Source of the DNA: Microbacterium imperiale
Lineage (GTDB): Bacteria; Actinomycetota; Actinomycetes; Actinomycetales; Microbacteriaceae
DNA length: 64,000 nucleotides
Assembly (NCBI RefSeq): GCF_017876655.1
Contig: NZ_JAGIOK010000001.1
Span: 2,728,001 to 2,792,000 of the forward strand
Direction of reading: 5' to 3'
Made by a program: the position numbers and the translations under genes. Under the pieces are notes generated by a model. It had not been told where the DNA came from and made no database searches. It was given only the letters and a program-made list of their open reading frames with translations. Shown here piece by piece: positions 24,286 through 33,831 of this stretch. Numbering within the stretch: the first letter of the stretch is position 1; each line of letters begins with the position of its first letter.

Positions 24286-25947
24286 TCAGCCCGTGACGAT
24301 CCGGCCGTCGACGATCCGCACCGTACGGTCGACGAGCTCGGCGGGCACTCGCACGTGCGAGATCAGCACCACCGCCCGTTCGTCGTCGACCGCAGCGAGC
24401 ATGTCGCGCAGGAGCGCATCGGATGCCGCGGGGTCGACCCCCGCCGTCGGCTCGTCGAGCACGAGCACGGGGAAGCCGTGCAGCAGAGCCCGCGCCAGCG
24501 CGATGCGCTGAGCCTGACCGCCCGAGACGAGCGAGCCCTGTTCGCCCACGCGCGCGTCGAGCCCGCCCCGCTCGCGCAGCCACGGGCCCAGGCCGACGCG
24601 GTCGAGCACGGCCTCGAGCTCGGCGTCGCTGGCGGTGTCGCGCGCGAAGAGCAGGTTCTGACGGATGTCTTCGTCGAACAGCATCGGCTGCTGCTCGCAC
24701 AGGCCGACGGTGAGGCGGACGTCGTCGGGGGCGAGGTCGCGGACGTCGGTGCGGCCGATGCGGTAGCTGCCGTCGACATCGAGGAACCGCACGAGCGCGT
24801 GAGCGAGCGTCGACTTGCCGGCACCGCTCGACCCGACCACGAGCACCCGTTCGCCGGGGCGCACGTCGAAATCGAGGTCCGAGAGCGCCGGACTCGCCGC
24901 GCCGGGCCACGACACCGAGACCCCGCGCAGGTGCAGACCGTCGCCCAGCGCCGGAGCGGTGCCGGTCGGTACGACGGCGCTCGACACGAGTCCGGCAGGG
25001 ATGTCGCTGGGCACGGTATCGGCGATGCGTTCGGCGGACGCGCGCACCTGGCGCCATGACGCCGCCGCGAGCGGCACCGTCGTGAACACCTCGAACACCG
25101 CCATCGGAACCAGGACCGCGACCGCGAGCCAGGGTCCGCCGAGGGTGGCGACATCGGGCGCGGTCACTGCGACGGCGAGGATCGAGGCGGCTCCCGCGGC
25201 CAGCGACACGATCGCCGTGCTGCCGGCCTGGGCGCCGGCGCGGCGGACGACGGCGCGTCGCAGATCGCGGTCGGCAGCCTCGATCCGCTCACGGCTGGTC
25301 GCCTCGGCGCCGAAGGCGAGCAGCACGTCGAGGCTGCCCAGGTGGTCGGCGACGGCATCGGCCAGCCGCGCCCGCAACGGCGCGATGGTGCGCTCGGCGC
25401 GTGCTCCGGCGAGCCAGCCCCACCCGGTGGCCGCGGCAGCGGCGACGGCGAGGCAGCCGAGCAGCGTCAGCGCCGCCGGCCACGACACCGTCGCGACGAA
25501 CACCACCGAGGCCAGTGCGACGGTCGCCGAGGCCACGAGCGGCTCGACGACGCGCAGCGGGAGGTTCTGCAGGTCGTCGACGTCGTCGACGAGCGCCGAC
25601 AGCGCCGAGCCGCGTCGCACGCGCCCCAGGCCGTCGGGGGCGAGCGGGATCAGGCGGCGCACGAGGTCGGTGCGGGTCGTCGCGAGCTGTCGCAGCGCCG
25701 CATCGTGGGACGTCAGGCGCTCGAGGTAGCGGAACACGGCGCGCGCGATCGCGAAGGCGCGTACCCCGACGACGGCGGCCATGACGTACATGACGGCCGG
25801 CTGCTCGCTCGCGCGGACGATGAGCCAGGCGCTGCAGGCGAGCAGAGCCACCGCGGCGGCTTCGGTCGCGAAACCGGTCGCCAGCGCGGGCCAGAACCTC
25901 CGGGCCGGGGGCAGGGCGCCGCGCAGCACTTCACGCGTGGTCGTCAC
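24286..25947 (-). CDS. cydC: Cytochrome bd biogenesis ABC exporter, CydC half
   Basis: The 553-residue half-transporter has six N-terminal helices and a C-terminal ATPase domain with Walker A GSSGAGKS, signature LVSGGQAQRIALARAL and Walker B VLVLDEPTAGVDP. CydDC exports glutathione or cysteine-type thiols (or transports heme, as debated) and is needed to assemble cytochrome bd. The GTG at 25947 (VTTTREVLRG) overlaps the cydD stop by 4 nt. A 1072-codon open frame covers this gene and part of the next, but its upstream portion is a shadow of cydD. It is the last gene of cydABDC. Confidence 0.93.
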   Translation of the reverse strand: MTTTREVLRGALPPARRFWPALATGFATEAAAVALLACSAWLIVRASEQPAVMYVMAAVVGVRAFAIARAVFRYLERLTSHDAALRQLATTRTDLVRRLIPLAPDGLGRVRRGSALSALVDDVDDLQNLPLRVVEPLVASATVALASVVFVATVSWPAALTLLGCLAVAAAAATGWGWLAGARAERTIAPLRARLADAVADHLGSLDVLLAFGAEATSRERIEAADRDLRRAVVRRAGAQAGSTAIVSLAAGAASILAVAVTAPDVATLGGPWLAVAVLVPMAVFEVFTTVPLAAASWRQVRASAERIADTVPSDIPAGLVSSAVVPTGTAPALGDGLHLRGVSVSWPGAASPALSDLDFDVRPGERVLVVGSSGAGKSTLAHALVRFLDVDGSYRIGRTDVRDLAPDDVRLTVGLCEQQPMLFDEDIRQNLLFARDTASDAELEAVLDRVGLGPWLRERGGLDARVGEQGSLVSGGQAQRIALARALLHGFPVLVLDEPTAGVDPAASDALLRDMLAAVDDERAVVLISHVRVPAELVDRTVRIVDGRIVTG

Positions 25948-27647
25948 GCCGCCACCTCCTGCGCCGCGCGGACGGTCACCATCGTGTCGGCGATCACGCG
26001 CGCCGACGCGCGGTGCGAGATGAGCAGCACCGTCGCGCCGTCGTCGGCCAACCGGCGCAGGCTCTGCCAGAGCGCGGCCTCGGTCTCGGCGTCGAGCGCG
26101 GCGCTGGGTTCGTCGAGGGCGATGACGGATGCGGCGCCGGTGAGGTGCCGGTAGAGGGCGCGCGCGACGGCGATGCGCTGAGCCTGCCCGCCCGACAGGC
26201 CGGAGCCCCGGACGCCGAGTTCCCGGCCGGGGTCGATGTCGCCGGCGCCCGCGAGCTCCTGCGCCCGGCGGAGCAGGCGGCGCCCGCGTTCGGACGCGAC
26301 CGCGTCGGCGGGTGAGCCGAGTGCGACGTTCTCGGCGACGGTGCCGGCGATGAGCCCCGGCTCCTGACCGGCCCACGCCAGCCACGTCGCGGCCGGGCGC
26401 GGGGCGGCGCCGTCGACCGAGAGCTCGCCCTCGAAGTCCGCGACGCCGCGCAGGGCGGCGAAGACGCTCGACTTGCCGGCGCCGCTCGGGCCGGCCAGCA
26501 GTGTGACGGTGCCCGGCACCGCGGTGAACGTCACAGGCTCCAGCAGCAGATCGCCGCGCCGCACCCGCAGGTCGGTCGCGCGGACGATGCCACCACCCGC
26601 GCTGCCGGCAGCGGGGGAAGGTCCGGCTGCGGCGGCGCCCGGCGCGTCCGCGGGCAGAGCGCGGGCGGCATCCAGGACGTCGAAGACGTCGTCGGTCGCG
26701 GCGACGCCCTCGGCGGCGGCGTGGAACTGCACGCCGACCTGACGCAGCGGCAGATAGGCCTCGGGTGCGAGGAGCAGGACGAACAGGCCGACGGCCAGGG
26801 CGAGCGAGCCGTCGATGAGGCGGAAGCCGATCGAGACGGCCACGATGGCGACGGAGATCGAGGCGAGGAACTCCAGCGCGAACCCCGACAGGAACGACAC
26901 CCGCAGCACCCGCATCGTCTCGACCCGGTAGGTCTCGGTGACGCGCTCGATCGAGGTCGCGGCGCGGTGCTGCCGGCCGAAGACGGTCAGCGTCGACAGG
27001 CCGCGGACGGTGTCGGCGAAGCGCGCCGCGAGCTGGCGCAGCGTTCGCCACTGCGCGCGCTGGACCGCTCGGGTGGCCAGCCCGATGAGCACCATGAACA
27101 GCGGGATGAGCGGCATCGTCAGCAGCACGGTGAGACCCGAGATCCAGTCGCTCCACCAGATGACGGCGATGAGCACCGGAGTGGCGATCGCGGTAAGGAC
27201 GAGCTGCGGCAGGTACCGGCCGAAGTAGGCGTCGAGCGCGTCGAGGCCGCGCCCGGCGGTCACCGCCAACTGCGCGGAGTTGCGGGACGCGAGCCACCCG
27301 GGACCCAGCCGCCCCACGGCGGCGGTCAGCGCCGCGCGCAGCTCGCTTCGCACCCGCGCGGCCGCCCGCGCCGACAGCGCCTCGCGCAGCCACAGCAGTC
27401 CGGCCCGCGCGGCCACGACCCCGCCGAGGGCGGCGAGCACGCCGGCCAGCTCGGCCGCCGGCATCCCGCCGACGGCGCCCACGATCGCGCGGGTGAGCAG
27501 CCACGCGAACGCGACCACGACGACCGTTTGCCCCAGCCCGATCACGCCGATCACGACGAAGAACGCGCGCGAGGTCCGCGCGTACCGCAGCAGGCGCGGA
27601 TCGACGGGCCGGCCGCTCGCGCGCGCGGGTTCGTCGCGCTGGTCCAT
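25944..27647 (-). CDS. cydD: Cytochrome bd biogenesis ABC exporter, CydD half
   Basis: The 567-residue partner half-transporter shows six helices, Walker A GPSGAGKS, the signature LSGGQAQRIAVARAL and Walker B VIALDEPSAALD. The helix segment AELAGVLAALGGVVAARAGLLWLRE and LDAYFGRYLPQLVLTAIATP are typical of CydD. The ATG at 27647 is preferred; an in-frame GTG two codons upstream (27653) is the alternative and AAGG lies before both. It follows cydB after 55 nt and is coupled to cydC. Confidence 0.93.
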   Translation of the reverse strand: MDQRDEPARASGRPVDPRLLRYARTSRAFFVVIGVIGLGQTVVVVAFAWLLTRAIVGAVGGMPAAELAGVLAALGGVVAARAGLLWLREALSARAAARVRSELRAALTAAVGRLGPGWLASRNSAQLAVTAGRGLDALDAYFGRYLPQLVLTAIATPVLIAVIWWSDWISGLTVLLTMPLIPLFMVLIGLATRAVQRAQWRTLRQLAARFADTVRGLSTLTVFGRQHRAATSIERVTETYRVETMRVLRVSFLSGFALEFLASISVAIVAVSIGFRLIDGSLALAVGLFVLLLAPEAYLPLRQVGVQFHAAAEGVAATDDVFDVLDAARALPADAPGAAAAGPSPAAGSAGGGIVRATDLRVRRGDLLLEPVTFTAVPGTVTLLAGPSGAGKSSVFAALRGVADFEGELSVDGAAPRPAATWLAWAGQEPGLIAGTVAENVALGSPADAVASERGRRLLRRAQELAGAGDIDPGRELGVRGSGLSGGQAQRIAVARALYRHLTGAASVIALDEPSAALDAETEAALWQSLRRLADDGATVLLISHRASARVIADTMVTVRAAQEVAA

Positions 27648-27702
27648 GCTCACCCTTCGATCCTGCCTTACCCCGATGACCGGACGCCCCGGCCCCGCGG
27701 CG

Positions 27703-28734
27703 TCAGTGGGCGACGAGTTCGGCCTCTTCGATGCGCGCCCGCGTGACGCGCTTGCGGAACACCCAGTACGTCCAGCCCTGGTAGAGCAGGACGAGGGGCA
27801 GGAAGATGACCGCCGCCCAGGTCATAATCGTGAGCGTGTAGTCGGTCGACGACGCGTTCTCGATCGTGAGGTTCCAGGCGGGGTCGGTCGAGGACGGCAT
27901 GACGTTGGGGAACAGCGAGAACCACAGGGTGAGCACCGCGAACATCACGGTGCCGGCGCCGGCGGTGAAGGCCCAGCCCTCGCGGCCGCTGACGTTCGCC
28001 GCGATCGCGGCGATGAGCATGAGGGCCGCCACCACGGCGGCGACCACGACCAGGGGAAGCAGGGGAGCCTCGGCGCCCATCGCCGAGACGACCGTCCAGG
28101 CGAGGAAGAACGCGGCGGCGACGAGCGTCATCAGTCCCGACTTCGTGGCCAGTCGGCGGGCCTGCTCGCGCACATCGCCGTCGGTCTTGAGGGCGACGAA
28201 GTACACGCCGTGGGTGAAGAAGAGCAGCAGCGTGACGACGCCGCCGAGTAGGCCATAGGGGTTCAGCAGCGTCAGCAGGGTGCCGGTGAACTCCTTGTCG
28301 GCGTCGATCGGCACGCCCTGCACGATGTTCGCGACCGCGACGCCCCACAGGAACGCCGGCAGCGCCGAGCCCCACACGATCATCAGGTCGAACCGCTTGC
28401 GCCACGTGGGATCGTCGCGCTGGTGGCGGTACTCGAACGACACCCCGCGCAGGATGAGCGCGATCAGGATCAGCAGCAGCGGCAGGTAGAAGCCGCTGAA
28501 GAGCGTGGCGTACCACTCCGGGAAGGCGGCGAAGAGGCACGCGCCGGCGACGATGACCCAGGTCTCGTTGAGGTCCCAGACGGGGCCGATCGTGTTGATG
28601 ATCTGCCGGCGCGAGACGTTGTCCTTGCCGAGGAAGGGCAAGGACATGCCGACGCCGAAGTCGAAGCCGTCGAGGACGAAGTAGCCCACGAAGAGGACGC
28701 CGACGATGAAGAACCAGACGTATGCGAGATCCAT
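27703..28734 (-). CDS. cydB: Cytochrome bd ubiquinol oxidase subunit II
   Basis: The 343-residue membrane subunit has about eight helices and pairs with CydA. Its N-terminus (YVWFFIVGVLFVGYFVLDGFDFGVGM) and GPVWDLNETWVIVAGACLFAAFPEWYATLFSG match the family closely. It starts 10 nt after the cydA stop, forming the classic cydAB unit, with cydDC following in the same operon. Confidence 0.97.
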   Translation of the reverse strand: MDLAYVWFFIVGVLFVGYFVLDGFDFGVGMSLPFLGKDNVSRRQIINTIGPVWDLNETWVIVAGACLFAAFPEWYATLFSGFYLPLLLILIALILRGVSFEYRHQRDDPTWRKRFDLMIVWGSALPAFLWGVAVANIVQGVPIDADKEFTGTLLTLLNPYGLLGGVVTLLLFFTHGVYFVALKTDGDVREQARRLATKSGLMTLVAAAFFLAWTVVSAMGAEAPLLPLVVVAAVVAALMLIAAIAANVSGREGWAFTAGAGTVMFAVLTLWFSLFPNVMPSSTDPAWNLTIENASSTDYTLTIMTWAAVIFLPLVLLYQGWTYWVFRKRVTRARIEEAELVAH

Positions 28735-28744
28735 GGCGTGCTCC

Positions 28745-30172
28745 TCAGTAGACGGTGGTCTGGGTGTGCGAGGTCGAGACCGCCTCGGCCTCGGGGGAGC
28801 CCGGCTCGGGCAGCGGGTCGGGACCCTTCTGCGCGGCCTTGCGGATCAGGCCGAACTCCACCACCGCGAGGGCGGCGTAGATCAGCGTGAACGCGATGAG
28901 CGAGATCAGCACCGTCCACCCGGGGACGTTGGGCGAGACGCCGTCCTCGGTGAGCATGAGGCTGAAGACGATCCAGGGCTGGCGGCCCATCTCGGTGAAG
29001 ACCCAGCCGACGAGGCTGCCCAGCAGGGGCAGGGGAGCCGACCAGATGGCGACCTTCCACATCCACGGCGCGACGGGGCGCGTCGCCTTCTTGCGGGTGA
29101 CCCAGAGACCGGCCACCGAGATGAGCGTCGCGATGCCGCCCAGGCCGATCATCCAGCGGAACGACCAGTAGGTGACCCAGACGATGGGGCGGTAGTCCAC
29201 GCCCGCGCCGAAGGTCTCGGTGTACTGGGCCTGCAGGTCGTTCAGGCCCTCGACGCAGCCGTCGAAGCTGTGGGTCGACAGGAACGACAGCAGATAGGGC
29301 ACGCGCAGTGACCAGATCTCTTCCGTGCCGTCGGGGGTTCCGATGGAGAAGATCGAGAACGACGCGTCGGCGCCGCACGCGGTGTTGAACATCGCCTCGG
29401 CCGCCGCCATCTTCATGGGCTGCGTCGCGACCATGACGAGGCTCAGCTGGTCGCCCGAGATCGCGACGCCGATGAACGAGACGATCATGCCCCACATGCC
29501 GAACCGCAGGGCCGGGCGCATCGTCTCGAGGTGCTGGGCCCGCGAGATGTGCCACGCGGCCACGGCGATCACGACGGCAGCGGCGAACATCCATGCCGCG
29601 AAGATGGTGTGGGGGAAGGCGGCGAGCACGATCGGATTCGTCAGGACCGCACCGAAGTCGATCAGCTCGGCCCGTCCGCCGTCGGCGGCGATCTGGTAGC
29701 CGACGGGATTCTGCATGAAGGCGTTCGCCGCGAGGATGAAGTACGCCGACAGGGTGGACCCGAGCACCACCATCCAGATCGAGAACAGATGCAGCGCCTT
29801 GGGCAGCTTGTCCCAGCCGAAGATCCACAGGCCGATGAAGGTGGCCTCGAAGAAGAAGGCGAGCAGGCCCTCGAAGGCGAGCGGTGCTCCGAAGACGTCA
29901 CCGACGAAGCGCGAGTACGCCGACCAGTTCATCCCGAACTGGAACTCCTGCACGATGCCGGTGACCACGCCCATCGCGAAGTTGATGAGGAAGATCTTGC
30001 CGAACAGGCGGGTCAGGTGCAGCCACTTCACGTTGCCGGTGCGGTGCCACACGGTCTGGAAGATCGCGACGACGAGCGCCATGCCGAGCGTCAGCGGAAC
30101 GAACAGGTAGTGGTACAGCGTCGTGAGTCCGAACTGCCAGCGGGCCAGCAGGAGCGGATCGAGGAAGTCCAT
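28745..30172 (-). CDS. cydA: Cytochrome bd ubiquinol oxidase subunit I
   Basis: The 475-residue catalytic subunit binds hemes b558, b595 and d and oxidises menaquinol while reducing O2. Ligand regions are visible: LYHYLFVPL (His21), the conserved GWDKLPKALHLF, FPHTIFAAWM (His near 187) and GRQPWIV in the quinol-binding Q-loop region. The length indicates the short Q-loop class usual in Gram-positives. It heads cydABDC. Its predicted promoter (30260-30288) contains a 13-bp palindrome that recurs before the four-cysteine regulator at 33162-33788, so oxygen- or NO-responsive repression is inferred. Confidence 0.97.
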   Translation of the reverse strand: MDFLDPLLLARWQFGLTTLYHYLFVPLTLGMALVVAIFQTVWHRTGNVKWLHLTRLFGKIFLINFAMGVVTGIVQEFQFGMNWSAYSRFVGDVFGAPLAFEGLLAFFFEATFIGLWIFGWDKLPKALHLFSIWMVVLGSTLSAYFILAANAFMQNPVGYQIAADGGRAELIDFGAVLTNPIVLAAFPHTIFAAWMFAAAVVIAVAAWHISRAQHLETMRPALRFGMWGMIVSFIGVAISGDQLSLVMVATQPMKMAAAEAMFNTACGADASFSIFSIGTPDGTEEIWSLRVPYLLSFLSTHSFDGCVEGLNDLQAQYTETFGAGVDYRPIVWVTYWSFRWMIGLGGIATLISVAGLWVTRKKATRPVAPWMWKVAIWSAPLPLLGSLVGWVFTEMGRQPWIVFSLMLTEDGVSPNVPGWTVLISLIAFTLIYAALAVVEFGLIRKAAQKGPDPLPEPGSPEAEAVSTSHTQTTVY

Positions 30173-30259
30173 CGGGCGGTGCCTTTCGGGAGGCGAGGGT
30201 TTCGACAGGCTGAAGGTATCGAGCGGGTTTTCTCCCGGTGAAGGGGACCGCCGGGAATA

Positions 30260-30288
30260 ATGCTAAGCGTGGTCAGACCACAATGCAA
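30260..30288 (-). promoter_or_regulatory. Predicted cydA promoter
   Basis: Reading leftward, TTGCAT (complement of 30283-30288) and TAGCAT (complement of 30260-30265) are exactly 17 nt apart. The spacer contains the palindrome GTGGTCAGACCAC. Transcription would start near 30253, leaving a leader of about 80 nt before cydA. Confidence 0.65.
30269..30281. promoter_or_regulatory. Palindromic operator in the cydA promoter spacer
   Basis: GTGGTCAGACCAC is a perfect odd-length palindrome placed between the -35 and -10 of cydA, a position where binding blocks RNA polymerase. The same core with one base changed (GTGGTCATACCAC) lies at 33817-33829 upstream of the four-cysteine regulator. Confidence 0.65.
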
Positions 30289-30291
30289 GAA

Positions 30292-30304
30292 GTTGTCAGA
30301 CCAC
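30292..30304. promoter_or_regulatory. Second, degenerate copy of the cydA operator
   Basis: GTTGTCAGACCAC differs from the neighbouring palindrome at one position and starts 23 nt from it, about two helical turns, so two dimers could bind on the same face of the DNA just upstream of the cydA -35. Confidence 0.55.
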
Positions 30305-30368
30305 GCCCGCGCGGTCGGGTCGCGCCCAAGCGGCCCTCGGGGTGTCGCCCGACGTCTACGCTCGGACC

Positions 30369-31379
30369 ATGCCGGAGCCGCTCGTCGACCGATTCGCCCG
30401 GGTCCATCGCGACCTGCGGGTCTCGCTGACCGATCGCTGCTCGCTGCGCTGCACGTACTGCATGCCCGAGCAGGGGAACGAGTGGCTCGCCCGGCAGAGC
30501 ATCCTCACGGTCGACGAGATCGTCGAGGTGGCGACCGTCGCCGCGGCCGCCGGCGTCACGACCTTCCGTCTCACCGGCGGTGAGCCCCTCCTGCGCACCG
30601 ACATCGTCGACATCGTCCGCCGCCTGTCGGCGCTGCGCGCCCCCTCGGGGCCCGCGCAGATCGCGATGACGACCAACGGCATCCGGCTGCCCGACGTGCT
30701 GCCCGACCTCGTCGCCGCGGGCCTGAAGCGGCTGAACATCTCGCTCGACACGATCGACCGCGACCGCTTCGCCCGCCTCACCCGACGCGACCGGCTGAGC
30801 GATGTGCTCGACGGGGTTCGAGCCGCTCGCGACTCCGGCCTGCGCCCGCTGAAGATCAATGCGGTCGCGATGCGGGGGGTCAACGACGACGAGCTCGCCG
30901 ACCTGGTGGCGTTCGCCGTCGCGAACGACGCCGAGATGCGCTTCATCGAGCAGATGCCGTTGGATGCCGGGCACACGTGGGACCGGTCGACGATGGTCAC
31001 GCGCGAGGAGATCCTCGAGGCGCTGTCGCAGCGGTGGGAGCTCGCGCCGGTGCCGGGTCGCGGCGGCGCGCCCGCCGAGCAGTGGCGACTCGACGGCGGC
31101 CCCCACGTCGTGGGCGTCATCGCGTCGGTGACGGCGCCGTTCTGCGGCGCCTGCGACCGGATGCGGCTGACCGCCGACGGTCAGCTGCGCAACTGCCTCT
31201 TCTCGAACGACGAGTACGACCTGCTGCCGGTGCTGCGCTCGGGCGAGCCGGGGCCGGACCGGAGCGACGAGATCGACCGCGTGCTGCGCAACTGCGTCGC
31301 CGGTAAGCGGGCCGGCCACGCCATCGACGACCCGGGTTTCCTCCAGCCCGCTCGCGGCATGAACGCGATCGGCGGCTGA
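30369..31379 (+). CDS. moaA: GTP 3',8-cyclase (radical SAM)
   Basis: The 336-residue enzyme carries out the first step of molybdenum cofactor synthesis. The radical-SAM cluster motif is C24-x3-C28-x2-C31 (CSLRCTYC), followed by FRLTGGEPLLR. The second cluster motif is near the C-terminus (FCGACDRMRLTADGQLRNCLFS), and the chain ends in the functional Gly-Gly. The start at 30369 is supported by TACGCT (30357-30362) 6 nt upstream, a leaderless arrangement; the longer frame is rejected. It stands apart from the other moa genes and next to the cyd operators, so it might share oxygen-linked regulation, though its own -10 is about 55 nt from those sites. Confidence 0.96.
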   Translation: MPEPLVDRFARVHRDLRVSLTDRCSLRCTYCMPEQGNEWLARQSILTVDEIVEVATVAAAAGVTTFRLTGGEPLLRTDIVDIVRRLSALRAPSGPAQIAMTTNGIRLPDVLPDLVAAGLKRLNISLDTIDRDRFARLTRRDRLSDVLDGVRAARDSGLRPLKINAVAMRGVNDDELADLVAFAVANDAEMRFIEQMPLDAGHTWDRSTMVTREEILEALSQRWELAPVPGRGGAPAEQWRLDGGPHVVGVIASVTAPFCGACDRMRLTADGQLRNCLFSNDEYDLLPVLRSGEPGPDRSDEIDRVLRNCVAGKRAGHAIDDPGFLQPARGMNAIGG

Positions 31380-31380
31380 C

Positions 31381-32541
31381 TCACGGGACGGAGCGGGCTG
31401 GTGCGCGGTGCGCTCGCGGAGCGAGGAGGCCTGCGAGCACGCCGAGCGCTCCGGCGGCGACGAAGGTGGTCAGGGGACCGACGACCGGTAGCGTCGCCCC
31501 GACGGCCGTCGCCCCGACGGCCTGCCCGATCATGAAGACGACGAACAGGGCGGCCGTCCCGGCGGCGGCGCGATCGGCGTCGATTCGGGTCGTCCATCCG
31601 ATGAGCGCTCCGGATGCCGCGATGTAGCCCCAGCCGAACAGTGCGCATGCGGCGGCGGCGGCGACGGGCTCGCCGGGGAAGGCACCCAGCGCGGCCGTTC
31701 CTCCCGCCGCGATCGCGGTCGAGATCAGCCACATCCGGCCCGGCGGGGTTCGTCTCGTGAGCGGGGCAGTCGCGATGACTGCGGCACCGCCGCATCCCAC
31801 CCAGACCCAGGCGAGCACCGAGGCGGAGGGTGAGGCGCCGGCATCCACCATGACCACGCGCCCGTAGTTCCACACCGCCGCCGCGCCGATCCCGAACAGC
31901 GCGGCGGCCGCGACGGGCCGGCGATGCCCTCGCCACCACGGCATCGGCGGCAGCCGGCGGGCGGGGGTGGTCGAGGCGTCGGCAGGGCGGGCGAGGGCGA
32001 GGACCGCGAGCCCGGCACCGAGGGTCGCGACCGCCGCGATCAGCCAAGCCACGCGCCAGTCGGGCGTCAGGGCGAGGGCGATGAGGCCCGCTGCGACGAG
32101 TCCCGGTCCGGTTCCCGCGTTGACTATCGCCTGCGCGGAGTCGGAGTCATGGCCGTTGAAGGCGGCGTGCACGATGCGCACCATCGCCGGCGAGGCCAGG
32201 CCGGCACCGGCCGAGCTCACCGTCGCCGACGCGGCGAGGACGACGACGTCGGGGGCCAGCGCGATGCCGACGGCGCCCCCGCCCGCTGTGAGGAGCGCGA
32301 GGACGACGAGCAGCCGCGGCCGGGTGGCGCCGAGGGCGAAACCCAGCAGAGCCGCGCCGCCGTAGACGAGCGATGCCGCCGCCGAGATCATGCCCGCCGT
32401 CGCGGTGTCGAAATCGACGTCCGCGCTCATGTCGGGCAGGTGCAGCCCGAACGCCAGGCGCACGAGGCCGTACGTCGCGGCGATGAGGGCGGTTCCGGCC
32501 GCCACGAGAGCGAGGCGACGAAACAAAAACGATCGTTTCAC
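31381..32541 (-). CDS. MFS transporter paired with a TetR repressor
   Basis: The 386-residue transporter has about 12 helices with weak family signatures (SLVYGGAALLGFALGATRPR, GIALAPDVVVLAASATVSSAGAGLASPAMVR). It resembles YbfB/CynX-like MFS proteins; the substrate is unknown. I place the start at GTG 32541 because TATGCT (complement of 32549-32554) is exactly 7 nt upstream, the leaderless pattern; an ATG at 32553 would lie inside that -10. Divergent from the TetR gene, with a palindrome AAACGATCGTTT immediately inside. Export of the TetR ligand is the usual logic, inferred here. Confidence 0.8.
   Translation of the reverse strand: MKRSFLFRRLALVAAGTALIAATYGLVRLAFGLHLPDMSADVDFDTATAGMISAAASLVYGGAALLGFALGATRPRLLVVLALLTAGGGAVGIALAPDVVVLAASATVSSAGAGLASPAMVRIVHAAFNGHDSDSAQAIVNAGTGPGLVAAGLIALALTPDWRVAWLIAAVATLGAGLAVLALARPADASTTPARRLPPMPWWRGHRRPVAAAALFGIGAAAVWNYGRVVMVDAGASPSASVLAWVWVGCGGAAVIATAPLTRRTPPGRMWLISTAIAAGGTAALGAFPGEPVAAAAACALFGWGYIAASGALIGWTTRIDADRAAAGTAALFVVFMIGQAVGATAVGATLPVVGPLTTFVAAGALGVLAGLLAPRAHRAPARSVP
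32527..32538. promoter_or_regulatory. Candidate TetR operator AAACGATCGTTT
   Basis: A perfect 12-bp palindrome overlaps the position expected for the tetR -35 (32530-32535) and the first codons of the leaderless MFS transcript. Binding here would block both divergent promoters. Confidence 0.5.
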
Positions 32542-32548
32542 TTTACCG

Positions 32549-32558
32549 AGCATAGAGT
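32549..32558. promoter_or_regulatory. Overlapping divergent -10 elements of the MFS and tetR genes
   Basis: The decamer AGCATAGAGT contains TAGAGT (32553-32558, rightward, 6 nt before the tetR ATG) and, on the other strand, TATGCT (32549-32554, 7 nt before the MFS GTG). The two promoters share two base pairs of their -10 boxes and must compete for polymerase. Confidence 0.55.
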
Positions 32559-32564
32559 GCTGGC

Positions 32565-33155
32565 ATGGGATTGCGGCCGACGACCGAGGTGCGCATCCTC
32601 GACGCGGCCGAAGATCTGTTCTTCACCCGGGGGATCGCGGCCACCCCGATCGACGTCGTCACCGCGCGCGCCGGGGTGTCCGCGGCCACGCTGTATCGCG
32701 GCTATCCGAGCAAAGAGGCGCTGCTGGCCGCCGCGTTGGAGCGTCGGCAACGCTCGTGGCGACGGGCCTGGGATGCCGCCGTCGACCGCCACAGCGACGC
32801 GGAGGGGCGCCTGCTGGCGATCTTCGACGCGCTCGAGGTGTTCCGCGATCAACCACGCGGCTCGCGCTGGTGCGCCTTCCTCGGAGCGGCGGCGGAATAC
32901 CCCGACGCGCCGCCCGAGATCGCGTCGGCCGTGCGCGATGACACCGAGGGGATGCGCGCGCGCCTGACCGAGCTGGCCGTTCCGCTCGTGGGCGATGCCG
33001 CGGCCGAGCTGGCCGAGCGACTGCTCATCGTCGTCAGCGGCGACCTCGCGATGCGCTTGCGCGAGCCGGGCTATGGCTCAGCCCGCGCCCGCGCCACGGC
33101 CGCCGCCCTTGTGAGCGCCATGCGATCCGATCAGGACGCCGGCCGCGACCGGTGA
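32565..33155 (+). CDS. TetR-family transcriptional regulator
   Basis: The 196-residue repressor has the TetR helix-turn-helix (RILDAAEDLFFTRGIAATPIDVVTARAGVSAATLYRGYPSKEALLAAAL, residues 10-57) and an all-helical ligand domain (DALEVFRDQPRGSRWCAFLGAAAEYP). The leaderless ATG at 32565 follows TAGAGT by 6 nt. It most likely represses itself and the divergent MFS gene through the shared 12-bp palindrome. The ligand is unknown. Confidence 0.87.
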   Translation: MGLRPTTEVRILDAAEDLFFTRGIAATPIDVVTARAGVSAATLYRGYPSKEALLAAALERRQRSWRRAWDAAVDRHSDAEGRLLAIFDALEVFRDQPRGSRWCAFLGAAAEYPDAPPEIASAVRDDTEGMRARLTELAVPLVGDAAAELAERLLIVVSGDLAMRLREPGYGSARARATAAALVSAMRSDQDAGRDR

Positions 33156-33161
33156 CGCGGC

Positions 33162-33788
33162 TCAGTCGTGCGTGGTCGCGGCGTGCAGCAGCTGGATGAT
33201 GCACACCGACGGGTCGCACGACGAGCGCATGCCGTCGACGGCGAGCGGGCCACCGGCCTCGGTGAGCACGCCCTGCAGCAGGCTCAAGTGCACGCTGCAC
33301 AGCACTTCGCGGTGCGACGCCTGCGCCTCGGCGTGTGCGCACGGGGTGAGGTCGACGGTGAGGGCGCTCTCGTCGATGATCGGGTCGAACCCCTCGTCCT
33401 CGAGCTCCTCGACGAGGGCGTCGATCTGGTGCAGCGCCTCGGTCTCGAGCGCGTCCGGGACGTCGATGGTGAGCACGCGGCGCATCAGGTCGCCACGCTG
33501 GGCGGCGTCGCGGACCTTGCGCCGCTGGATCGCGCTGCGGGTCGCGTCGCCGTCCGCGGCACTGTAGAGCACCCGCGGACGTCCGCGGGTCGTCCGGTGC
33601 TCCTTCTCGGCGACGATGAAGCCGTCGGAGATGAGCCGGGCGAGGTGCTCGCGGATGGTGTTGGGGTGCAGTCCCGTCGCCTCCTGCAGTTCGAGGATCG
33701 TCCGGCGCGGCTGCTCCTGGATCAGGTGCAGGATCTCCACGCGGGAGTAGCTCGAGATGGCGCTGTATCCGACCGTCGCGGTGCTCAT
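33162..33788 (-). CDS. Winged-helix regulator with four conserved-looking cysteines (SufR-like)
   Basis: The 208-residue protein has an N-terminal winged helix (VEILHLIQEQPRRTILELQEATGLHPNTIREHLARLISDGFIV, then a basic wing RTTRGRPRVLY at 66-75). Its C-terminal domain carries Cys150, Cys164, Cys191 and Cys196 (spacing C-x13-C-x26-C-x4-C) in TPCAHAEAQASHREVLCSVHLSLLQGVL and SSCDPSVC. This resembles SufR-type regulators that bind an Fe-S cluster and sense oxidants, NO or iron status, though the spacing differs. TTTAAT (complement of 33796-33801) is 7 nt before the ATG, a leaderless start; ATG at 33797 is less likely. The palindrome over its -35 matches those at cydA, so autoregulation plus cydABDC control is inferred. 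Confidence 0.75.
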   Translation of the reverse strand: MSTATVGYSAISSYSRVEILHLIQEQPRRTILELQEATGLHPNTIREHLARLISDGFIVAEKEHRTTRGRPRVLYSAADGDATRSAIQRRKVRDAAQRGDLMRRVLTIDVPDALETEALHQIDALVEELEDEGFDPIIDESALTVDLTPCAHAEAQASHREVLCSVHLSLLQGVLTEAGGPLAVDGMRSSCDPSVCIIQLLHAATTHD

Positions 33789-33795
33789 GAGACCC

Positions 33796-33831
33796 ATTAA
33801 ACACGGAAAACCCCCTGTGGTCATACCACAG
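33796..33831 (-). promoter_or_regulatory. Promoter and operator of the four-cysteine regulator
   Basis: Reading leftward, TTTAAT (complement of 33796-33801) is the -10, and the -35 position falls at 33819-33824. That hexamer lies in the middle of the 17-bp palindrome CTGTGGTCATACCACAG (33815-33831). The core GTGGTCATACCAC differs from the cydA operator by one base. Confidence 0.6.

Follow-up and report, generated by a model that had tools for sequence, protein, structure and literature searches.

Cytochrome bd oxidase genes (cyd) are controlled by Rex in streptomycetes. The closest described systems to the proteins considered here are two regulators of Corynebacterium glutamicum. ArnR, in the relevant passages of PMC12343034, is a [4Fe-4S], nitric oxide (NO)-sensing repressor of nar (narKGHJI) and hmp with three conserved cysteines (179, 193 and 223) and a conserved histidine near the cluster; the cluster decays slowly in O2, nitrosylation ends DNA binding, and the C-terminal domain is likened to TRAPPC3, with 7YH3 named. 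LldR represses ldhA, and L-lactate inhibits its binding (passages of PMC7999487); its structure is 2di3, and sites of the FadR subfamily carry TKGT and ACMA boxes spaced 3 nucleotides (nt) apart (passages of PMC4494728). We compare with these systems a 64,000-nt stretch of the Microbacterium imperiale genome (contig NZ_JAGIOK010000001.1, positions 2,728,001 to 2,792,000; the window), which carries the bd oxidase operon cydABDC and, separated from cydA by moaA, an MFS gene and a TetR gene, the gene of a winged-helix regulator, P0001. An earlier note on this DNA had proposed that P0001 is an Fe-S repressor that reads a palindrome common to the cydA and P0001 promoters.

Comparison across the genus makes it likely that the cydABDC promoter is under two different repressors acting through two different sites: the palindrome (motif 1, GTGGTCWGACCAC) and a second, asymmetric element (motif 2, TTATTCACGGC). 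Motif 1 would be bound by an LldR-type GntR protein of the FadR subfamily, encoded with an lldD-like gene, and motif 2, at both the cydA and the P0001 promoters, by P0001, an ArnR-like regulator apparently recruited to cytochrome bd. The comparison covers 149 genomes of the genus, taken to be Microbacterium from named loci, searched for P0001, GTGGTCWGACCAC, the GntR gene and cydA. Genomes with a best E of 1e-55 or better were scored as P0001-positive (99 genomes), and the weaker matches of G004, G032 and G103 were scored as negative. The GntR-negative class has 22 members, with G132 and G136 placed there by their absence from the GntR match list; G105 was scored as positive on a match of 43% identity. 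Fisher tests on the 149 genomes count related genomes, and kinship was handled in pair tests along a 70-genome cydA tree, with 35 genomes that have P0001 and 35 that lack it.

The motif 1 copies at cydA and P0001 lie where the earlier note had placed them (Table 1), and the first, GTGGTCAGACCAC, does sit in a 17-nt spacer of the putative cydA promoter, between the minus-strand hexamers TTGCAT and TAGCAT. A sigma-70 scan of 30173-30368 gave no promoter at threshold, and these hexamers are thus inferred from the sequence. In the window the pattern GTGGTCAKACCAC has seven matches with up to two mismatches on both strands; shuffled sequence gave 2.32 on average, and seven was reached in 2 of 100 shuffles. 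The exact pattern occurs seven times in the 3.17-Mb genome, where base composition predicts about 0.14, a count far above chance. Allowing one mismatch, a scan of both genome strands found 20 matches against 2 for a reversed-pattern control.

All seven exact copies are intergenic by the predictions of a simple, purpose-written gene caller. Besides the copies before cydA and before P0001, one lies between adhE and a divergent nrdI-like gene, 90 and 85 nt ahead of them; the others precede the L-lactate dehydrogenase gene (ldh) by 16 nt, pflB-pflA by 162 nt, a PTS IIABC gene by 89 nt and the gene of a 940-residue, secreted-looking protein with no Pfam match (L049 site 5388) by 86 nt. Most of these genes belong to fermentation or low-oxygen metabolism. 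Two degenerate copies precede a GntR-FCD gene adjoining an FMN-dependent dehydrogenase gene (L058). Five further genomes gave 33 sites, of which 15 loci were read with gene names given by eye; motif 1 stood at pflB in four genomes, at adhE in two, at cydA in one and at lldR in one, as well as at other genes. For a 941-residue paralogue of the secreted-looking protein, the copy (L057 site 4544) has one mismatch and again lies 86 nt ahead of the predicted start.

Which protein reads motif 1 can be judged from presence and absence across genomes. The earlier note assigned the palindrome to P0001, a reading for which the palindromes before both genes in the window and in near relatives (L015-L021) speak, as do the overlap with the P0001 start codon in most of a second clade and the retention of the palindrome at P0001 in two genomes that have no GntR gene (G054 and G079). 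Both upstream copies thus recur in near relatives, but across the genus motif 1 tracks the GntR gene and not P0001: 126 of the 127 genomes that have the GntR gene carry it, as do 3 of the 22 that lack that gene (Fisher 6e-20), against 84/99 genomes with and 45/50 without P0001 (p 0.45). The two classes that separate the candidates are sharply divided, since motif 1 is absent from 14 of the 16 genomes with P0001 and no GntR gene and present in all 44 with the reverse combination. At cydA itself, in the 70-genome set, it occurs in 26/35 genomes without P0001 and 15/35 with it, and its sequence matches the FadR-subfamily consensus (passages of PMC4494728). The palindrome as the P0001 operator at cydA was accordingly rejected, and binding by P0001 to the palindrome at both promoters is quite improbable. 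A palindrome common to two genes can mislead about its protein until presence and absence are compared.

The GntR gene (G000:C1:2918674-2919390) lies about 157 kb from the cyd locus of the window. Its product has GntR (PF00392) and FCD (PF07729) domains, both over cut-off, and its best solved relative is 2di3 (E 1.3e-47), followed by NanR at 4.5e-14; the product of the gene after it matches FMN_dh at 420.9 bits, with the NCBIfam LldD models below cut-off. Promoters of lldR carry motif 1, with at most one mismatch in ten arm positions, in 29 of 30 loci, 25 of them with two copies, and the centre is C-N-G in 54 of 54 sites. Because motif 1 co-occurs with the GntR gene, lies at lldR itself, fits the consensus TKGT-N3-ACMA and belongs with a protein akin to 2di3, it is most likely the operator of this LldR-type regulator. 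Like C. glutamicum LldR, the protein is a FadR-subfamily GntR encoded beside an FMN-dependent dehydrogenase, with ldh as a target and a site of the TKGT-N3-ACMA form (passages of PMC7999487 and PMC4494728); it differs in a predicted regulon that adds cydABDC, pflBA, adhE, the PTS permease and perhaps another redox regulator. We propose that it represses cydABDC, adhE, ldh, pflBA, the PTS permease, lldR and perhaps P0001 until L-lactate accumulates.

Several observations weigh against this assignment. On the cydA tree, the GntR gene agrees with motif 1 anywhere in the genome in 5.0 of 7 pairs, with 0.0 opposing (p 0.0625); when motif 1 is scored solely at cydA, agreement falls to 2.4 of 7, again with 0.0 opposing (median p 0.5). 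Motif 1 is present without the GntR gene in G044, G076 and G079, G054 (also without it) has a copy matching 9 of 10 positions at cydA, and 11 of the 26 genomes among the 70 that have both regulators lack motif 1 at cydA. The NCBIfam LldR model PRK10421 scores 90.6 bits on the GntR protein (cut-off 311), under the 106.4 bits of NanR (cut-off 260). The copy at P0001 has an ATG/CAT centre, unlike the C-N-G of the 54 lldR sites, and GAGGTATGACCAC or GTGGTATGACCAC persists at the P0001 start in G054 and G079, which have no GntR gene; for these two reasons the attribution of that copy is uncertain, and it is perhaps an LldR site. In the second clade (most of L022-L040), GTGGTATGACCAC or a near copy contains the P0001 start codon, just after a GTGAATAAT box, an arrangement that possibly reflects leaderless transcription with an operator on the start codon.

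Motif 2 emerged from inspection of the promoters of 60 genomes with P0001, where TTATTCACGGC stood upstream of both P0001 and cydA and could face either way. It is sharply bounded and asymmetric in 66 instances with at most one mismatch. It is carried by 78 of the 99 P0001-positive genomes against 2/50 without P0001 (p 6e-20), and shows no such relation to the GntR gene (69/127 with, 11/22 without; p 0.82). Scored at cydA in the 70-genome set, with one mismatch allowed and TTTTGCACGGC accepted as well, it was found in 30/35 genomes with P0001 and 0/35 without. Seven independent pairs could be drawn on the cydA tree, of which on average 5.6 agree and 0.0 oppose (median p 0.031). A further 38 P0001-positive genomes lay outside the discovery set. 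In 33 of them an exact copy stands in the 250 nt upstream of P0001 or cydA, and those regions hold 37 of the 52 exact copies in the 38 genomes. In the window the cydA copy, TTATTCCCGGC, touches the putative -10 hexamer and covers the start region. From these sequence comparisons, TTATTCACGGC is likely the site of P0001.

Alternatively, motif 2 could be a promoter or DnaA-like element whose link to P0001 comes from shared ancestry around the operon. It is asymmetric; TTATTCACGG resembles a DnaA box, and reversed, as GTGAATAAT, it resembles an extended -10 element. Against this, motif 2 occurs in both orientations at -18 to -163 from the start, and it is absent at cydA from all 35 P0001-negative genomes, for which a cyd promoter and DnaA are no less necessary. 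P0001 presence moreover changes 15 times on the cydA tree, with no opposing pair in the pair test. We regard this alternative as unlikely, and retain motif 2 as the candidate operator of P0001.

That assignment has weak points of its own. The tree-controlled tests for the two motifs are small (p only 0.03 and 0.06) and the genomes are related. Excluding TTTTGCACGGC, which is found in four genomes, lowers motif 2 at cydA to 26/35 P0001-positive genomes. Five P0001-positive genomes have no motif 2 at cydA; four of them carry a copy at P0001, and the fifth, G013, has only forms with two mismatches. Both copies in M. imperiale are imperfect, with one mismatch at cydA and three at P0001, and the asymmetry is unusual for a dimeric regulator.

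The linkage of P0001 to cydABDC that the earlier note saw in one genome extends through the genus: of the 99 genomes that have P0001, 86 place it no more than 8 kb ahead of cydA, with both genes on one strand, and 49 no more than 300 nt ahead. Nine genomes (G033, G034, G036, G042, G069, G071, G076, G107 and G129) have P0001 with only a diverged cydA elsewhere, of 57-59% identity over the first 214 residues and in open frames of 330-649 codons; exact motif 2 still stands directly before P0001 in eight of the nine, all but G033. A Microbacterium-like P0001 (74% identity) also occurs on a contig labelled Stenotrophomonas maltophilia (L022), probably a contaminant in that assembly.

P0001 has the winged helix that had been attributed to it (PF13412, 38.2 bits, over cut-off), in an N-terminal part with ArsR/MarR-type matches and a structure model of pLDDT (predicted local distance difference test) 88.9. 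Four cysteines had been named as cluster ligands, and Cys150, Cys164, Cys191 and Cys196 are all in this protein; in 60 orthologues, fetched from the 99, and 20 relatives, Cys150, Cys164, Cys196 and His167 are invariant (60/60 and 20/20), and Cys191 is kept in only 48/60 and 1/20. The conserved set is thus three cysteines and a histidine, which suits an Fe-S repressor of the ArnR kind rather than a four-cysteine one. The C-terminal model is of low confidence (pLDDT 69.4), and TRAPP proteins, including 7yh3, make up 14 of its 50 listed structural neighbours, with a best Z of 8.2, near the value typical of models that match nothing clearly. Neither the whole model nor the C-terminal domain had a Foldseek match at E 0.001, a sequence search of the PDB found no relative at E 0.01, and the 60 PDB matches shown for the P0001 profile are helix-turn-helix (HTH) types plus ribosomal-protein noise.

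Relatives outside the genus were found in 19 genomes of a family search of 299, at 32-42% identity, and about 3.6 kb of context was read, with neighbours named by eye and a part of them checked by hidden Markov model (HMM). By HMM, seven family-level and two class-level relatives adjoin narG; these narG matches are partial genes at locus ends, and their scores of 581-638 bits fall short of the cut-off of 1084 set for the whole protein. Globin or flavohaemoglobin-type genes adjoin one family-level relative, one paralogue in G076 and one class-level relative. Within the context read, none of the 20 family-search relatives adjoins cydA.

These features recall ArnR, described in passages of PMC12343034. 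Both proteins have a winged helix, three conserved cysteines (spaced by 14 and 32 residues in P0001, 14 and 30 in ArnR) and a conserved histidine; 7YH3 appears in the P0001 neighbour list and in the ArnR paper, and relatives of P0001 adjoin nar and hmp-type genes. We call P0001 ArnR-like because of the cysteines and histidine and the relatives beside nar and flavohaemoglobin-type genes, and not ArnR because it is linked to cydA (86/99) rather than to narKGHJI or hmp; its putative site, TTATTCACGGC, was moreover derived in this analysis. It is probably an ArnR-like regulator with cyd as a new target, a kinship drawn from published features of ArnR. SufR, a [4Fe-4S] regulator with an ArsR/MarR-type winged helix (as cited in passages of PMC12343034), was tried and rejected: P0001 scores 27.4 bits on TIGR02702 against a cut-off of 178.8, over the HTH part only, and no suf genes were recognised among the genes called around P0001.

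P0001 would probably hold a [4Fe-4S] cluster on Cys150, Cys164 and Cys196 with a fourth, non-cysteine ligand, for which His167 is a candidate. In the holo form it would block the cyd promoter, and NO or loss of the cluster would release it. The earlier note had listed exposure to O2, NO or iron shortage; by analogy with ArnR, NO or cluster loss is a more likely signal than O2 itself. Passages of PMC11995493 report that cydABCD is up in a strain presumed to form or repair fewer Fe-S clusters, and list arnR among Fe-S genes, with no link drawn between the two in those passages. In open-licence PMC literature, the matches listed included none that describes control of cyd by an ArnR-type protein or by LldR, and none paired 'LldR' with 'cydABDC'.

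Rex would be the other obvious candidate for cyd control. The earlier note cited its role in streptomycetes, which favours it here. Its DNA-binding domain, PF06971, scored over cut-off in none of 59 genomes of the genus (three weak matches fell below, and M. imperiale gave no match), against 6 of 14 named genomes in a control search. Control by Rex is thus hardly credible in this locus, and we return to the two proposed repressors. The actinobacterial regulators OxyR, HrrA and SigC, which act on cydABDC in C. glutamicum (passages of PMC7337898), belong to other protein families; that such regulators exist weighs against the two-repressor reading.

Evenly balanced, in our judgement, is the wider proposition that in this genus, where the sample searched shows no Rex, two indirect signals of a lack of oxygen govern bd oxidase. 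One would be NO, acting through an ArnR-like [4Fe-4S] repressor that is dedicated to cyd and has its own asymmetric 11-bp operator. The other would be lactate from fermentation, sensed by an LldR that has added bd oxidase, the mixed-acid fermentation genes and the ArnR-like regulator to its regulon. For cytochrome bd control in a genus where 59 searched genomes gave no Rex, the analysis supplies a pair of testable DNA sites and identifies two regulators. If the proposition is true, the ArnR type reaches beyond nitrate respiration into oxygen respiration, and LldR beyond lactate use into a regulon for low oxygen.

Table 1. Features of the cyd locus and the P0001 gene in the window.
Feature	Position	Strand	Basis or remark
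P0001, ArnR-like winged-helix regulator, 208 aa	33162..33788	-	invariant Cys150, Cys164, Cys196, His167
Motif 2 TTATTCCCGGC, 1 mismatch to TTATTCACGGC; probable P0001 operator	30250..30260	-	at putative cydA -10/+1; co-occurrence with P0001
Motif 1 palindrome GTGGTCAGACCAC; probable LldR operator	30269..30281	.	in putative cydA promoter spacer; co-occurrence with GntR
Second motif 1 copy GTTGTCAGACCAC	30292..30304	.	23 nt from first, centre to centre; such pairs also before lldR
Putative cydA -10 TAGCAT	30260..30265	-	read from sequence; paired with -35 TTGCAT 30283-30288
Motif 1 copy before P0001, GTGGTCATACCAC (= GTGGTATGACCAC on minus strand)	33817..33829	.	perhaps LldR site; weaker attribution
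Degenerate motif 2 CCGTGTTTAAT, 3 mismatches, P0001 promoter	33796..33806	-	weak here; exact or near-exact in other clades
cydA	28745..30172	-	PF01654 E 1.8e-159
cydB	27703..28734	-	PF02322; TIGR00203 over cut-off
cydD	25944..27653	-	TIGR02857 over cut-off
cydC	24286..25947	-	assigned by position and sequence; gene call

Other motif 2 sites, read at 20 fetched loci and at L056, gave no appearance of a broad regulon; among the genes at these sites are one for a VKOR protein and, in a single genome, pflB. Exact motif 2 lies about 85-97 nt upstream of the gene of a 257-261-residue protein at 13 of the 20 loci L188-L207 (for example L188:622-1395) and at L265 and L266. The protein had no Pfam match in the two copies scanned, its gene is divergent from a GmrSD-like gene (one scanned), and a homologue, recognised by eye, adjoins P0001 in G034 and G076; it may be a further P0001 target. 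Exact motif 2 also lies between trpD and the gene of a 153-164-residue membrane-type protein without a Pfam match, at L056:4417 (M. imperiale) and, in two relatives, at L195:1448 and L204:1446, and in M. imperiale genes of aa3 oxidase and bc1 type, named by eye, adjoin this site.

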